From the NCBI GenBank assembly GCA_022820365.1, contig JAJEFO010000079.1, forward strand, positions 1 to 48,580: DNA of 48,580 bases. The letters are read 5' to 3'. How positions within the stretch are numbered: the first letter of the stretch is position 1; every line of letters begins with the position of its first letter. This DNA is from Silicimonas sp. (GTDB taxonomy: Bacteria > Pseudomonadota > Alphaproteobacteria > Rhodobacterales > Rhodobacteraceae). The notes below the pieces were generated by a model. The model was not told where the DNA came from and ran no database searches. It saw only the letters and a program-made list of their open reading frames with translations. Positions 7,323-15,429 of the stretch are shown piece after piece. Made by a program: the position numbers and the translations under genes.

Positions 7323-8597
7323 TCAGCTGAGCTGCGATGCCGCCGCTTCGAAAGCCCGCTTCGTCACTTCCAGATCGTCGTCGTTGAGGGCAAGACATGA
7401 ATAAATCTTGCCGGGCGGCTTGAACAGCCCGTGGGCTCGGAGCGCTTCGTTCCAGGACGCGGTGCGGGCATCGTCCGCTGACAAAGCGTCGCGATAGTTC
7501 CGGACGTTTCGGTCGGTGAAGATGACTTCGAACAGGGAGGGTTCTCCGACAAGCCGATACGGAATGCCCGTCGGGTCGAGCGCGTCGCGTGCCAGCCCCA
7601 TGACCGTCTTGCCGATATCCTCCAGGCGCTCGTATTGGCCGGGGCGCCGCAGGATCTCGAGGGTCTTGAGGCCCGCGGCAGCGGCGATCGGGTTGCCGGA
7701 AAGCGTCCCAACCTGCATCAGCCAGCCGTCGGGTCCAGCAAGGCTCTTGTCGAAGTGCTTCATGATCTCGGCCCGCCCGGCGATTGCGGCCAATGGAAAC
7801 CCGCCGCCGATGATCTTGCCAAGCGTCGCGATGTCGGGCGTGACGCCGTAGGTTTCCTGCGCGCCTCCATAGGCAAGCCGGAACCCGGTGACGATTTCGT
7901 CGAAGATCAGGACGATGCCATGCCTGTCGGCTTCTTTCCTGAGGACCTGCAAGTATCTGGAATCCGGTGGAATGAAGCGTTGAAGCGGCTCGACGATGAT
8001 GCCGGCCACCTGGTCGCCCCATTCCGCAAGGAGCGAGCGAATGTAGTCCGGGTCGTTGAATGGCGCGATCAGGACTTCGGACGCGACTCCGGCCGGAATC
8101 CCGGCGCTGTCAGGCACGGCTCCCGGGAAGTTCACGGGTCTCTCGGGCGCAAGCGACATTTGCGCCTCGGCGCTCATGCCGTGATAGCCGCCTTCGAACT
8201 TCACGATCTTGTCGCGGCCTGTGAAGGCGCGGGCGAGCCGCATGGCGTACATGTCCGCCTCGCCGCCCGTGGAGACGTAGCGGAGATGCTCGGCGCAAGG
8301 CAGGGCCCGGCAAATCTCTTCGGCGAGCTCGATGCCGAGAGCATTGCTGGCGAAGAAGGTCTGTCCCCTGGGCAGCTGCTCCGTCACGGCCTCCAGAACT
8401 TCCGGGTGGCTGTGGCCGAGGATCAGCGGTCCTGAGCCGATCAGGTAATCGACGTATTCGTTGCCGTCTTCGTCCCGGACTCGTGCGCCCCGACCCTCGC
8501 GGATGACGATGCCCGGGTCGAAATTGCCGAACCCGCCTGCCGGCAGCACGGCCTTCGCACGCGCGACCCAATTGGTCTGCGATGTGATGGTGGTCAA
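7323..8597 (-). CDS. Class III PLP aminotransferase (glutamate-1-semialdehyde aminomutase-like)
   Basis: This is a 424-residue fold-type I PLP enzyme. Visible motifs are GSGPLILGHSHPEV, the PLP phosphate region STGGEADMYAMRLARA, the aspartate motif IFDEIVTGFR and the lysine in DIATLGKIIGGGFP that forms the Schiff base. The sequence is nearest to the GSA-aminomutase-like branch, but catabolic context points to an amino acid aminotransferase or mutase rather than haem synthesis. The start is TTG at 8597 (LTTITSQTNWVARAKAV), with AGGAG seven bases upstream. A longer frame from 8654 would read into a remnant of another gene and is rejected. It is last in a minus-strand set with the FAD oxidase and enolase-superfamily genes. 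A truncated copy of its 5' end lies at 10465-10552. Confidence 0.88.
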   Translation of the reverse strand: MTTITSQTNWVARAKAVLPAGGFGNFDPGIVIREGRGARVRDEDGNEYVDYLIGSGPLILGHSHPEVLEAVTEQLPRGQTFFASNALGIELAEEICRALPCAEHLRYVSTGGEADMYAMRLARAFTGRDKIVKFEGGYHGMSAEAQMSLAPERPVNFPGAVPDSAGIPAGVASEVLIAPFNDPDYIRSLLAEWGDQVAGIIVEPLQRFIPPDSRYLQVLRKEADRHGIVLIFDEIVTGFRLAYGGAQETYGVTPDIATLGKIIGGGFPLAAIAGRAEIMKHFDKSLAGPDGWLMQVGTLSGNPIAAAAGLKTLEILRRPGQYERLEDIGKTVMGLARDALDPTGIPYRLVGEPSLFEVIFTDRNVRNYRDALSADDARTASWNEALRAHGLFKPPGKIYSCLALNDDDLEVTKRAFEAAASQLS

Positions 8598-8601
8598 TGT
8601 C

Positions 8602-8757
8602 CTACTCCTGATTTGGGCCGGGGCCGTCAATGTTGTCCCGGTCGGACCCGGCATCTGGTCCCGGACCTTCGAGCATCACGGTGCACCTCCCCTTTTCCCG
8701 ACTTGGCGCGTTCGGGTCAAGGCGCGGGCTGGCTCAGCCGGATCGCGGGTGCTGTCC
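8602..8757 (-). pseudogene. C-terminal remnant of a second enolase-superfamily gene
   Basis: Read on the minus strand, one frame gives PRLDPNAPSREKGRCTVMLE, then GPGPDAGSDRDNIDGPGPNQ, E and a stop. The intact gene at 10557-11660 ends PRLDPNAPGRDGGCITPPEG, PGLGVEPDPDILGDPDLELE, stop. A 22-base stretch (8708-8729) is identical to 10660-10681, and both copies share the stop-to-next-start spacing (TAG, then GACA, then TTG). The remnant begins about 14 bases from the stop of the FAD oxidase gene and ends at the aminotransferase ribosome binding site, which it now supplies. The start and body of this copy are missing here; another part is at about 10365-10475. Confidence 0.85.
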
Positions 8758-8770
8758 CGAACGGGCTTTG

Positions 8771-10111
8771 TCAGTAGGGGCCGGGAACGACTGGGCTGCC
8801 GTCAGTGAACCGTTCGAAGCGGAACCGCGACAAGTCGAAGCCGGTTGGGCGGTCCAGCACCAGGTCGGCGAGAACCCGGCCCACGCCCGGTCCGATCCCG
8901 AAGCCGTGTCCGCTCATTCCGGTGCCGATGAACAGGCCAGGGAGCGATGGCACTTCGCAGATGTAGGGCACGGCATCGGGAGTCACGTCGATCATCCCTG
9001 CCCACGCTTCCGCCATGCCGGCCTCTTCCAACCAGGGCGCCCGTTCGCGGAGATGCTTCATCAGGCGTCGCCGGCCCTCATTCGATGGCGGCGGATCAAG
9101 CACGCGCATCCGCTCGAACGGCGTGACCTCGTCGGCACGCCAGCGCGTCTTTGAACCCCATGCACCCGGAAAACCCGCGGGAGGCTTCGGTTTGAGCCGC
9201 AGATTCGCGGTCGACTTCCACGTCAGCTTCGCGAACTTGGTCAGGTCCCGGAACGAGCGGGCACACACGTAATGCTCGACGAGGTTTCCGGTCGTCACGG
9301 TATGGCCGCCATCCGCACGGCGACTCGTGGCGAATCCGGGCATGGAAACGTTCGGAAGCCCGCGGTCGGCCACGGGGTGGGTGCGGCCGACCGTGGAACG
9401 CACGATGAGTTGCGGCAGGTCAATTTCCGCGTTGCGCGCAAAGCAGGTTGACCAGGCACCGCCTGCCAGCACCACGCGCTCGGCCCGTACGGGCCCGCGC
9501 TCGGTGTGCACGCCGGTGACATTGCCGGCCCTGGTTTCGAGGGTGCGCACGGCGCAATCCTCAGTGATCGACACCCCGACCTGTCGTGCCGCGCGCGCCA
9601 GCGCCGGTACCGCGACAAGCGGCTCCGCCCGCCCGTCGCTCGGGGTCAGCATTCCGCCGATCCAATCTCCCTTGAATCCGGGACACGCTTCCCGCGCTTC
9701 CGCCGGCGAAAGCATGCGCGTGTCGAGCTGGTGTTCCCGGGCGAGATCATGCCATTCCTCGTACCTGGCGAGAGCGCCCTCGTCCTCAGCGAGATACGCC
9801 AGTCCGCACCCTGCGAAGGCGAGGTCCTTCTCTCCGGTCTCTGCAGCGAGACTCCGCCAGATCCGGTTCGACTCCATCACGACAGGCAGCTCGTCCCGGT
9901 CCCGGCCCTGCTGGCGGATCCAGCCCCAGTTGCGGCTTGACTGCTCGCCGGCAACACGCCCCTTCTCGATCAGCGCGACCTTTGCGCCCTGCCGCCCGAG
10001 GAACCAGGCGGTCGAGGTGCCGATGATCCCGGCGCCGATCACCACGACGTCAACGGCATCCGGAACTGGGTCGGCATGGACGATCGGCGTGGCTTCGGTG
10101 ATCATCGGCAT
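8771..10111 (-). CDS. FAD-dependent oxidoreductase of the DAO (D-amino acid/sarcosine oxidase) family
   Basis: This is a 446-residue flavoprotein. The dinucleotide-binding fingerprint is VVVIGAGIIGTSTAWFLGRQ, ending at an acidic residue in VALIEKG, and is followed by GEQSSRNWGWIRQQGRD. The C-terminus holds a second FAD contact (GLFIGTGMSGHGFGIGPGVG). Family members oxidise secondary or D-amines such as D-amino acids, sarcosine or cyclic imino acids, passing electrons to oxygen or a carrier. The start is the ATG at 10111, preceded by AGAGGAG at good spacing; an upstream ATG at 10165 in frame is rejected. The gene lies between two pieces of a broken enolase-superfamily gene, so it may have been inserted into that copy. 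A substrate related to proline or hydroxyproline is possible but not shown. Confidence 0.88.
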   Translation of the reverse strand: MPMITEATPIVHADPVPDAVDVVVIGAGIIGTSTAWFLGRQGAKVALIEKGRVAGEQSSRNWGWIRQQGRDRDELPVVMESNRIWRSLAAETGEKDLAFAGCGLAYLAEDEGALARYEEWHDLAREHQLDTRMLSPAEAREACPGFKGDWIGGMLTPSDGRAEPLVAVPALARAARQVGVSITEDCAVRTLETRAGNVTGVHTERGPVRAERVVLAGGAWSTCFARNAEIDLPQLIVRSTVGRTHPVADRGLPNVSMPGFATSRRADGGHTVTTGNLVEHYVCARSFRDLTKFAKLTWKSTANLRLKPKPPAGFPGAWGSKTRWRADEVTPFERMRVLDPPPSNEGRRRLMKHLRERAPWLEEAGMAEAWAGMIDVTPDAVPYICEVPSLPGLFIGTGMSGHGFGIGPGVGRVLADLVLDRPTGFDLSRFRFERFTDGSPVVPGPY

Positions 10112-10139
10112 GCGGGACTCCTCTGGGCGTGCCGACGGT

Positions 10140-10475
10140 GCGCGTGCTTGAACGAGGCATCGCAAAGCGCGATCGGGTCAGGAAATTCAGGGTCGCAGAT
10201 CGAGTGCGCAACGGACCGCCACCGGCGCCCACTGTACGTTTCAATCATTTTGGTGAGATCGGCGTGCTTGGGCCGGGACGACCGCGCGGAAAGCGGCACT
10301 CTCGCCAGGCAAGTCCGTTCGCGGCCTTGTCTTGGCACGGGCCATGCGTCACGAGCGTAGGTTGTCGACATGACGGCTTCCTGCCTGATCGGGTCTCTGC
10401 CGAGCGGCGTCGGCGCACGTTCTGTGATTGCGGGCTGATCGCCACGCGCAGGGACCGGGATGCAATGCGGGATCG
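10140..10475 (-). pseudogene. Internal fragment of a second enolase-superfamily gene
   Basis: The minus-strand frame reads IPHCIPVPARG then DQPAITERAPTPLGRDPIRQ and EAVMS. The intact protein reads IPHYLPAYAHG, VQPAIAELAPVLLGSDPIGP, DAVLS at the matching place. The nucleotides are about three-quarters identical over roughly 110 bases (10365-10475 against about 11405-11515). Towards 10140 a further short likeness (PIALCDASFK against DIALWDLTAK) is weak. The sequence between is not alignable by eye. At its 5' side it is joined directly to an aminotransferase fragment. With the remnant at 8602-8757 it appears to be the same broken gene, now split by the FAD oxidase gene. Confidence 0.75.
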
Positions 10476-10552
10476 TAATCGCCGATGCCGCCGGCGAGAA
10501 GCACGGCTTGCGCACGCGCCACCCAGTCGGAGTGCAATGTGATCGTGGTCAA
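10465..10552 (-). pseudogene. N-terminal fragment of a second class III aminotransferase gene
   Basis: Starting at the TTG complementary to 10550-10552, the frame reads LTTITLHSDWVARAQAVLLA then GGIGDYDP. The intact aminotransferase begins LTTITSQTNWVARAKAVLPA, GGFGNFDP. About 22 of 28 residues match. The similarity stops after the DP codons, where the sequence passes into enolase-superfamily sequence, so the copy is truncated to about 30 codons. The same ribosome-binding arrangement as in the intact copy (GGAG, stop codon TAG, GACA, TTG) is kept. This shows that the ancestral order was enolase-superfamily gene followed directly by the aminotransferase. Confidence 0.85.
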
Positions 10553-10556
10553 TGTC

Positions 10557-11660
10557 CTACTCCAATTCCAGGTCCGGGTCTCCCAGTATGTCCGGGTCGG
10601 GCTCGACCCCAAGGCCTGGACCCTCGGGAGGCGTGATGCAACCTCCGTCGCGGCCCGGTGCGTTCGGGTCAAGGCGCGGGCCGACATAGCCCGAGAGATC
10701 GCAGGTGTTGAGGAGACGCGAGGGCGGCGTCGTGGCCGCCAGATGCAGGAGAGCGGCGGTGGTGATGTCCGATCCCCAAGTGTCCTCGATGCACATTTTT
10801 GCGCCTAAATTCAGGCAGAGGTCGCGGGCGGCGCGACAGGCCGAGATGCCGCCGAACTTGGAAAGCTTGAGCGCGACCGCGTCCATGCACGCCCGCGCGT
10901 GCCCCTCGAGGAGGGTCTCAGTGTCAAAGGCCGCCTCGTCAAGCTTCATCGGAAGGCCGGTCGCGTCGCGAACCCTGGCGCAATCCGCGATGGTACGACA
11001 CGGCTGCTCAAGCATGATGTCCAGGTCGCGTACCGCACGGCCGACGCGCGTGGCTTCAAGCGACGTGGCGCCCATGTTCCAGTCGCCGTAGACTAGCGGC
11101 CCGGGTCCGACGGCTTTCCGGACTTTGGTCAACCGCTCGACATCGGTCTGCCAGTCTCCCGAGGCGCCAAGCTTGGCCTGGAATTGACCGATGCCTTGCG
11201 CCTTGGCTTCGCGAGCGATGCGCGCCATTTCGTCCGGCGCGATGCAGGTGATGGAATGATAGAGCGGCATCGAATCCGCCTGGCGTCCGCCGAGAACGCG
11301 GTACAGGGGCAGGGCGGCGACCTTCGCCGTCAGATCCCAAAGCGCAATGTCGATCGCGGACTTCGCATAGACGTGTCCCTGCAACCAGGCATCGGCTCTC
11401 GACAAGACGGCGTCCGGCCCGATCGGGTCGCTGCCGAGCAGTACCGGCGCAAGTTCCGCGATCGCTGGCTGAACACCATGCGCGTAGGCCGGCAGATAGT
11501 GGGGGATCGGGCAGACCTCTCCCCAGCCGGTGACGCCAGCGTCGGTGTCGAGCGCCAAGACCACGGTTTCGACCGTGTCGCAGGTCTTGCCTTCCGCCAT
11601 GCGATAGGCCTCGTGGCTCTTCAGCGGCAGGTGCCAGAGGCGAACGGCGGAGATTTTCAT
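10557..11660 (-). CDS. Enolase-superfamily enzyme, mandelate racemase/muconate lactonising type (gene B)
   Basis: This is a 367-residue enzyme with the N-terminal capping domain (MKISAVRLWHLPLKSHEAYR) and a TIM barrel. Likely catalytic and metal residues are the lysine in FQAKLG, the acidic ligands in YGDWNMG, MLEQPC and KLDEA, and the second lysine in ALKLSKFGG. Such enzymes abstract the alpha proton of a carboxylate and act as racemases, epimerases or dehydratases. The general character is close to 4-hydroxyproline betaine 2-epimerase-type enzymes (for example the WGE-CP-GP-Y region reads WGEVCPIPHYLP). That is a guess at function from remembered family features. Its TAG stop is followed five bases on by the start of the truncated aminotransferase copy. 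It lies 112 bases after a second, divergent paralogue (gene A). Confidence 0.85.
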   Translation of the reverse strand: MKISAVRLWHLPLKSHEAYRMAEGKTCDTVETVVLALDTDAGVTGWGEVCPIPHYLPAYAHGVQPAIAELAPVLLGSDPIGPDAVLSRADAWLQGHVYAKSAIDIALWDLTAKVAALPLYRVLGGRQADSMPLYHSITCIAPDEMARIAREAKAQGIGQFQAKLGASGDWQTDVERLTKVRKAVGPGPLVYGDWNMGATSLEATRVGRAVRDLDIMLEQPCRTIADCARVRDATGLPMKLDEAAFDTETLLEGHARACMDAVALKLSKFGGISACRAARDLCLNLGAKMCIEDTWGSDITTAALLHLAATTPPSRLLNTCDLSGYVGPRLDPNAPGRDGGCITPPEGPGLGVEPDPDILGDPDLELE

Positions 11661-13048: not shown

Positions 13049-14131
13049 TCATGGAGTCACGACGATGTTGCCGACATGCTTCTTGGCGATGAACGCGGTC
13101 TGCGCCGCATGAAGCTCCTCAAGCGGCCAGGATGCGGCGAGGTTCGGCTTGACCTTGCCCGCCTCGATCAGCCGGACGAGTTCCAGCATCACGTCTTCGT
13201 CGATCACCGTTGATCCGGTGAATGTCAGGTCGTTGAGATAGAATGTCCTGAGATCGAACTCCACGATCGGGCCGGCGATTGCCCCCGAGCACGTGTAGCG
13301 GCCACCCCGTTCGAGGATGTCTATGAGGGCAGGCCATGCCGGGCCACCGACGATGTCGGCAACGACGCTGACGGTCTCGTCGCCGAGTGCGGAGCGAAGG
13401 TCTCCCGGTTCGCGCGGCAGGACGCGGTCGGCGCCAAGGGCGGAGACTTCGGCATGCTTGGCCTCGGATGCCATGGCAACGACCCTGGCGCCCCGGATCT
13501 TCGCGAGCTGGACAAGGGCTCCACCGACGCCTCCGGACGCCCCGGTGACAAGGATCGTGTCCGAGGCCCCGGCGCGCGCGCGCTGCAGCATCCCGAGCGC
13601 TGTCGAATACGAGCAGGAGAACGTGGCGAGTTCCGGACTCGTCATCTCGGACTGGATGGTCAGGGCGTTCCGTGACGGAACGGTCGCGTATTCCGCAAAT
13701 CCGCCATCGCGTTCCGAGCCAAGATACCCGACCTTGTTCCTGTTCGCGGGTTCCTCAGGGTCGCGAATCCAGTTGTCGGTGATCACGCGGGCACCGATGC
13801 GGGCAGGCTCCACGCCGTCCCCGACGGCCACGATCTCGCCACAGATGTCCGCTCCCTGGATGCGAGGAAACGTGATCGGCGCGCCGCCCCAGCTTGGATC
13901 GTCCTGTTCCTCGACATCGAAGCCATCGCCGGTCGTGCGCTCGGTGACCGCCTTCGAGTACCAGCCGGAACGCGTGTTGACGTCAGTGTTGTTCAGACCG
14001 CATGCGCCGACCTTGATCAGCACCTCTCCTGGGGCCGGGTCGGGTCGCGGCCAGTCGGTGTGAAGGACCATCTGGTCCATTCCGCCATGACCGAGAGTGA
14101 CCATTGCTTTCATCGTTGAGGGCATGGCCAT
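13049..14131 (-). CDS. MDR-superfamily dehydrogenase/quinone oxidoreductase-like
   Basis: This 360-residue member of the medium-chain dehydrogenase superfamily has an N-terminal GroES-like domain (PAPGEVLIKVGACGLNNTD) and a Rossmann domain with the NAD(P) motif TGASGGVGGALVQLAK. The usual catalytic zinc ligands are not evident: GLNNTD stands where GLCHSD is common, and GADICGE where GHE is common. A zinc-free, NADPH-dependent reductase or dehydrogenase is therefore likely. The chosen start is ATG 14131 (MAMPSTMKAMVTLGHGG), with CAGGAA ahead of it. It is first in the minus-strand catabolic set and divergent from the Rieske gene, so the 218 bases between them probably hold both promoters. Confidence 0.88.
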   Translation of the reverse strand: MAMPSTMKAMVTLGHGGMDQMVLHTDWPRPDPAPGEVLIKVGACGLNNTDVNTRSGWYSKAVTERTTGDGFDVEEQDDPSWGGAPITFPRIQGADICGEIVAVGDGVEPARIGARVITDNWIRDPEEPANRNKVGYLGSERDGGFAEYATVPSRNALTIQSEMTSPELATFSCSYSTALGMLQRARAGASDTILVTGASGGVGGALVQLAKIRGARVVAMASEAKHAEVSALGADRVLPREPGDLRSALGDETVSVVADIVGGPAWPALIDILERGGRYTCSGAIAGPIVEFDLRTFYLNDLTFTGSTVIDEDVMLELVRLIEAGKVKPNLAASWPLEELHAAQTAFIAKKHVGNIVVTP

Positions 14132-14333
14132 GAAAATCCGTTCCTGAAGCACGTGAATTTGCTCGACAGGCTAATCGCACGATTTTACCGTCGTCAATGA
14201 CGCATGGCATCAACGCATCATTCGAGGCGCATTTTGGGGATTTCCTGCGAACGTACAGTCTGGCATTCGGCGGGGGGCGGATTGCCGTGCACCACCCGTC
14301 AAGGCGGGACGAGCCCGTCGCCGCGTCCAAGAA

Positions 14334-14345
14334 GCAGGTACCTGC
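14334..14345. promoter_or_regulatory. 12-bp palindrome at the Rieske gene start
   Basis: GCAGGTACCTGC is a perfect palindrome ending four bases before the ATG at 14350. It covers the position of the ribosome binding site. It could be an operator for a small regulator or a translation-blocking element, or chance. Confidence 0.35.
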
Positions 14346-14349
14346 ATAA

Positions 14350-15429
14350 ATGACTGATCCGGTTCGTTCGCTCGCTGCCCGCTACTACACCGACCCGGAA
14401 GTCTTCGAGGCGGAGCGGGGCGGGTTGCTGTCCCGGACCTGGCAGTTTGCATGCCACGCAAGCGCGCTTCGGAATGGCGGCGATTACGTGACTTTCGAGA
14501 TCGCGGGCGAGAGCCTGTTTGCGGTCAAGGGCAACGACGATGTCATCCGGACATTCTACAATGTCTGCCAGCATCGTGCACATCAGCTCGTCAGCGGGTC
14601 CGGGACAAAGCGGCTCCTGGTCTGTCCGTATCACTCATGGACTTACGAATTGACTGGCGAATTGCGATCCGGTCCGAACATCGGGGCGGTCGAGGGATTC
14701 GACAGATCCAAGGTCTGCCTGTCCGAGGTCAGGACCGAGGTGTTCCTCGGCCTTGTCTTCGTCAATCTGGATTCGGATGCAAGACCGATGGACGAGTGGT
14801 TTCCGGGCGTTCAGGAAGAGCTTCGGGCATGGTTGCCGGATTGGGCGCGCTTGCAGCCGGTCAAATGGATCGAGATCCCCGAAAGCTGCAACTGGAAGGT
14901 GTCGGTAGAGAACTACTCCGAATGCTACCATTGCAGCCTCAACCACCCGACTTTCGCGACCGGCGTGGTCAAGGCCGAGACCTATGACATTCAGCCGCAG
15001 GGCTATTGCCTGCGCCACACGACCGAATGCCAGAACCTCGATGACATGACGTACGAAATTGATCGGTCCCGAGCCCACGCGGAGGAGTATTCAAGCTGGT
15101 TTCTCTGGCCCGCATTTAGTTTCCAAGCCTATCCGGGCAACGTGCTCAACACCTATCACTGGCGCCCGGTTGACGTGGGCCGCGTAGTCGTCTGGCGTGG
15201 GTGGTACGCGGTTGACGGTGAGGAGAGCGACGTGATTCTCGACCTTGCCCGCCAGGACAGGGAGACGACAGTTGAGGAGGACATCCATCTGGTCGAATCC
15301 GTGCAGCGAGGCCTTCGGTCGCGCGGCTATGCGCCGGGACCTTTGGTGATCGATCCGAAGTGTGGCGTGAACTCCGAGCACTCGGTCATGCACTTGCAGC
15401 GGTGGATGCGCGAGGCCCTGGATGGCTAG
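14350..15429 (+). CDS. Rieske non-haem iron oxygenase, alpha subunit (demethylase-like)
   Basis: This is a 359-residue oxygenase. The Rieske [2Fe-2S] ligands are C73, H75, C92 and H95 (CQHRAHQL then VCPYHSW). The mononuclear iron histidines are H194 and H199 in NYSECYHCSLNHP, with an acidic third ligand expected near residue 300. The general character resembles the enzymes that demethylate stachydrine, glycine betaine or carnitine. They insert oxygen into an N-methyl carbon and release formaldehyde. It needs a reductase partner, and none is encoded in this window. The next gene is a GFA protein, linked by family name to formaldehyde handling, which supports a demethylase role. A palindrome covers the region just ahead of its start. 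Confidence 0.9.
   Translation: MTDPVRSLAARYYTDPEVFEAERGGLLSRTWQFACHASALRNGGDYVTFEIAGESLFAVKGNDDVIRTFYNVCQHRAHQLVSGSGTKRLLVCPYHSWTYELTGELRSGPNIGAVEGFDRSKVCLSEVRTEVFLGLVFVNLDSDARPMDEWFPGVQEELRAWLPDWARLQPVKWIEIPESCNWKVSVENYSECYHCSLNHPTFATGVVKAETYDIQPQGYCLRHTTECQNLDDMTYEIDRSRAHAEEYSSWFLWPAFSFQAYPGNVLNTYHWRPVDVGRVVVWRGWYAVDGEESDVILDLARQDRETTVEEDIHLVESVQRGLRSRGYAPGPLVIDPKCGVNSEHSVMHLQRWMREALDG

Follow-up and report, generated by a model that had tools for sequence, protein, structure and literature searches.

Pieces of an enolase-superfamily gene and of an aminotransferase gene lie on either side of an oxidoreductase gene in an operon of Silicimonas sp., next to intact versions of both, and the question raised by this locus is how such an arrangement came about. 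The window analysed here, a stretch of 48,580 nucleotides, forms contig C72 in a draft genome of 4.71 Mb. On its minus strand the operon runs in the order ADH, ENA, ENB, the remnant start of an aminotransferase gene (AT') with an internal enolase fragment (E' internal), FAD, the C-terminus of the same enolase copy (E' C-terminus), and AT.

As the preliminary description had held, the three genes at the centre of the question are intact. ENB (11660 to 10557, minus strand; 367 aa) contained both MR_MLE_N and MR_MLE_C in Pfam, FAD (10111 to 8771, minus strand; 446 aa) is a DAO-type oxidoreductase gene (PF01266, E = 2.5e-70), and AT (8597 to 7323, minus strand; 424 aa, with a TTG start) is a class-III aminotransferase gene (PF00202, Aminotran_3). 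The most likely start of FAD is the ATG at 10111, a TTG at 10165 merely yielding the longest open reading frame. Mean dN/dS, over 15 genus pairs for each gene, was 0.156 for ENB, 0.150 for AT and 0.149 for FAD; values of about 0.15 indicate that all three are maintained. A second enolase-superfamily gene identified through Pfam, ENA (12885 to 11773, minus strand), lies operon-upstream of ENB and is found beside it in many outgroup loci; it is very close to the solved structure 3eez (E = 3e-212), which is itself named only as a putative mandelate racemase/muconate lactonizing enzyme. Both ENB and ENA matched the cis-3-hydroxy-L-proline dehydratase model NF043002 over nearly their whole length, but below its curated cut-off (342.4 bits for ENB, where 500 bits are required). 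The best models for AT were likewise sub-threshold and concerned glutamate-1-semialdehyde aminomutase (NF000818, 376.5 bits against a cut-off of 398; TIGR00713, 359 bits against 527.3). ENB and ENA therefore resemble the dehydratase, and AT the GSA-type class-III aminotransferases, but no substrate is named for ENB or AT because the family-model scores stay under the cut-offs. An Rfam scan at gathering thresholds returned no hits, nor did pattern scans for promoters and terminators.

All three remnants lie on the same strand as the adjoining intact genes, head to tail. AT' (10552 to 10470, minus strand) corresponds to the first 28 or so aminotransferase codons, and is 81% identical to the start of AT (8515–8608) over 94 nt (10470–10563, which includes the end of ENB). 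The E' internal remnant (10475 to 10365, minus strand) represents ENB codons ~51–88 and is 76% identical to 11399–11509, while the E' C-terminal remnant (8757 to 8602, minus strand) represents codons ~317–367, matches 10553–10710 and could be aligned in eight genus loci. When the remnants were compared with the intact genes by BLASTN inside the window, two significant matches were obtained: 8515–8754 with 10470–10710 (71.3%, 247 columns, E = 5e-27), an alignment that pairs the AT start with AT' and also the E' C-terminus with that of ENB, and 10365–10475 with 11399–11509 (75.7%, 111 nt, ungapped, E = 3e-17). Chance similarity is ruled out by these E-values; the duplication remnants are real, and the coordinates first given for them were right to within a few bases. 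Extension of E' past codon ~88 toward FAD was not significant (score 23, against a shuffle mean of 21.6 and maximum of 34, n = 200).

The arrangement is not peculiar to the window. A search with ENB of the species-genome collection found 159 loci encoding a relative, of which the best 80 were kept. Eight of these (L033–L040) were 91–96% identical to the window and represent the genus, as Boseongicola, Silicimonas or Alphaproteobacteria MAG records, several coinciding with the same-genus genomes compared (numbered G); the other 72, at 77% or less, served as outgroups. FAD directly followed ENB in all eight other genus loci, with traces of the duplication, which bears out the earlier proposal that FAD lies inside a second enolase copy. 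AT was reached after FAD in six; the record of L036 stops just within AT and that of L035 within FAD. Since the position of FAD and the repeat traces recur in eight further genus records, both assembly error and chance become very unlikely explanations. AT' and E' material was present upstream of FAD in seven of nine loci, window included, with an internal deletion there in L034. In L036 and L037 just 75 nt precede FAD, starting with the first bases of AT' and retaining hardly any of it and no E' internal; these short spacers were read as the result of a later deletion. The E' C-terminus was visible in eight of nine loci, the L035 record ending too early.

Beyond the genus, the undisturbed pair was the rule. 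Among the 70 of 72 outgroup loci that were eligible (at least 1200 nt after ENB), AT lay within 700 nt of ENB in 67 and within 66 nt in 65, the commonest spacing being 4 nt; it was absent near ENB in L078, L085 and L106. Because the two genes adjoin in 67 of 70 eligible loci, the ENB-AT pair is considered ancestral and long conserved, as the preliminary description had supposed, and this gene order also favours its suggestion that the pair is functionally linked. No similar remnants were found in the two outgroups with long gaps between ENB and AT (L068, 606 nt; L094, 268 nt). The gap in L094 (L094:9099–9381) contains inverted repeats with arms 76–89% identical, perhaps a small mobile element.

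How the duplication was made is suggested by the place where AT' meets E'. The remnant reads as AT to about codon 28 and then as ENB from about codon 51, and the two share a 7-nt microhomology, CGATCCC (10475 to 10469, minus strand). Comparison of the letters across genus loci placed this join at the identical position in all seven loci that retain both pieces. CGATCCC was present at the junction in six of seven remnants (L034 has CGAACCC) and in all nine genus ENB genes; it was exact in only two of seven present-day AT genes (L034, L039), and one or two letters were different in each of the remaining five. One partial tandem duplication, with a unit of ~1.04 kb from ENB codon ~51 to AT codon ~28, would suffice to produce the junction. 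The earlier account had instead envisaged duplication of the whole ENB-AT pair, a deletion joining the copies, and insertion of FAD into the second enolase; on that view the deletion linked codon 28 of the first AT with codon 51 of the second ENB. Duplication of the region is upheld by the relatives; full pairs and a deletion are not needed because AT' meets E' at the microhomology, so that one step suffices. The longer route is a possible but doubtful alternative: it leads to the identical final order and its deletion could equally have used CGATCCC, while it requires one event more, and no locus examined has a second ENB (>350 bits) or a second AT (>250 bits). The one-step duplication is preferred on economy only. 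No relative with an undecayed duplication, or with the duplication and no FAD, was present among the loci examined; hence these data neither fix the sequence of events nor distinguish one step from two.

As generally understood, tandem duplication by short-homology (illegitimate) recombination yields head-to-tail copies, microhomology at the join and a decaying redundant copy, all of which are seen here; the present case differs in that the spare copy contains an acquired gene and that the fossil is common to a genus. Duplication followed by loss also alters gene order in the SNAP model, in which the duplications are described as comprising tens to hundreds of genes and as being kept by selection (PMC7055797). 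The likeness to that model lies in duplication and loss, but here the unit measures ~1 kb and loss of a complete gene copy is not required. Its criterion, that different complete genes be lost from different copies, would fit only if the whole pair had been duplicated, and the loci examined include no intermediate of that kind.

Phylogenetic analysis was applied to the origin of the duplicated material. In a combined tree of 81 ENB rows and five of nine remnant rows (four were too short and were left out), the remnants formed one clade (support 100), placed between the ENB genes of the genus and the outgroups. Trees for each piece used alternate outgroups (36 of 72 for ENB). For E' internal, the remnant clade had support of 100, and genus plus remnants 86; for AT', the remnants were a clade at 95 and joined genus AT at 100. 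The E' C-terminus did not place the remnants in one clade and joined them to genus ENB at only 42; this tree is weak and gives no backing to an origin within the lineage. That low value is what speaks for the idea that horizontal transfer from another genus supplied E' and perhaps AT. The other two pieces group firmly with the genus, and most best-match scores place the remnants nearer to the genus copies than to the outgroups; a foreign second copy is thus highly improbable and was mostly rejected on trees and best-match scores, with the E' C-terminal tree as a weak exception. The E' internal and AT' trees point to the lineage's own genes as the source of the remnants.

The remnants have since behaved as non-coding DNA. 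Five remnants differed by 19.1, 26.3 and 23.6% across the three codon positions, whereas ENB at identical columns differed by 7.2, 3.7 and 22.6%. Jukes-Cantor (JC) distances of 0.21–0.40 among four remnants (six pairs) were similar to the dS of ENB for the same pairs (0.20–0.34). The absence of codon-position bias and the loss of reading frame are characteristic of pseudogenes, and on these comparisons the remnants are drifting neutrally.

FAD itself seems to have a different source. Of 293 genomes searched, 100 had a match to FAD at E <= 1e-70, among them the genome of the window and each of the seven other genus genomes. The closest matches outside the genus were in G193 (79%), G257 and G152 (both 60%) and G120 (55%), all from other families; among the matches listed, those within the family but outside the genus did not exceed 52%. 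A tree of 30 FAD sequences agreed, grouping the gene with other families. As its nearest relatives sit in other families, FAD was probably acquired horizontally from outside the family. At the G193 locus DNA similarity spans the FAD gene and ends at the gene ends, and neither ENB nor AT was found nearby in the 17 kb read. This bears on the suggestion that FAD and the repeats arrived together, on a circle or fragment that contained FAD along with a homologous piece of ENB and AT, integrated at the ENB-AT boundary and left partial repeats on its flanks. Single-crossover integration would likewise produce a truncated AT at one flank and a truncated enolase at the opposite flank, and no genome was seen with the duplication or the FAD insertion alone; the nearest FAD, however, has no such neighbours, and the E' internal and AT' remnants group with the genus, so that joint arrival is judged unlikely. 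Entry of FAD into a pre-existing spare copy is the preferred reading. Single-gene horizontal insertion into an operon is familiar as general knowledge, and the present case is alike in having a gene of foreign affinity between two co-directional operon genes; it differs in that FAD occupies a redundant partial copy and neither neighbour is broken. The nearest solved relatives of FAD are L-amino acid deaminases.

One part of the dead enolase may have persisted for a reason. The last codons of the E' tail include GGAG (8608 to 8605, minus strand), a likely ribosome-binding site for AT, which was kept in all eight readable genus loci, while the E' stop TAG was kept in only two of these. Of the last 24 columns of the tail 18 were invariant, against 55 of 131 farther upstream; 11 of the 24 cover the AT start region and so are also subject to the constraint on AT itself, and GGAG amounts to just four columns adjoining a coding start. 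In most outgroups AT begins a few nucleotides downstream of ENB; genus loci have the FAD stop ~160–173 nt before AT, and AT probably needs its own ribosome site because of this distance. The tail may therefore have been retained by selection on a putative leader role of GGAG.

Wider changes affected the same operon. An RpiR-type regulator preceded ADH in 58 of 61 testable outgroup loci but in none of seven testable genus loci, and a DAO plus GCV_T (DMGDH-like) gene did so in 61 of 61 but in none of the seven testable among eight genus loci; the outgroup domains were read in one locus, L087. In the window, the gap between the Rieske gene and ADH (13049–15429) lacks both. Copies of the DAO plus GCV_T gene, 75–76% identical, were found elsewhere, on other contigs, in G000, G001, G002, G004 and G005, the copy in the window's own genome (G000:C124:31085–33565) being 76% identical; matches were partial in G007 (73% and 81%) and G003 (69%), and G006 had none above 43%. 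No RpiR match was found beside these copies in the two stretches read. With RpiR and DAO plus GCV_T gone from the locus, and the latter sited elsewhere, the operon is taken to have been rearranged in the genus. That FAD simply replaced a lost DAO plus GCV_T gene was unsupported, since copies lie elsewhere in genus genomes.

ENA is also disrupted in places, being split near codon 230 in G007 and G001 (right halves at L033:7400–7520 and L037:7400–7520, left halves in L148 and L149). The insert is an apparent mobile element, of which more than 7 kb was seen, its far end lying beyond the sequence read; it contains two tandem phage-type integrases and a NikA-like match below cut-off. Its junctions have a common 7-nt core, GCCATYC, and the two lineages in which this same site is used are not sister groups in the ENB tree. 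ENA is intact in L036, the sister of L037.

Taken in sequence, the ~1.04 kb between ENB codon ~51 and AT codon ~28 would have been tandemly duplicated at the 7-nt microhomology in the common ancestor of the genus, giving ENB - AT'(1–28)|E'(51–367) - AT with both real genes whole. FAD, probably foreign to the family, would then have taken the place of the central part of the redundant E' copy, after which the leftover pieces of AT' and E' would have drifted, the E' tail probably being retained as holder of the AT ribosome-binding site. A probability of roughly 80% is assigned to this history of partial duplication, FAD in the spare copy and neutral decay. No account of the locus appeared among the papers listed by literature searches. 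It is a known kind of event, and ordinary genome evolution, but unusually well preserved: nine loci provide a clean fossil of gene gain by an operon, in which a partial duplication was followed by a probably foreign gene in the spare copy and by neutral decay. ENB and AT emerge as a conserved neighbouring pair, the closeness of remnant distances to dS provides a neutral yardstick for the genus, and a reason is suggested for the survival of one scrap of a dead gene. More tentatively, the spare copy might have been a neutral landing pad, through which the operon could gain a foreign oxidase while ENB and AT stayed unbroken, within a rewiring in which RpiR was lost and DAO plus GCV_T came to lie elsewhere; FAD may then be a working new step in the pathway.
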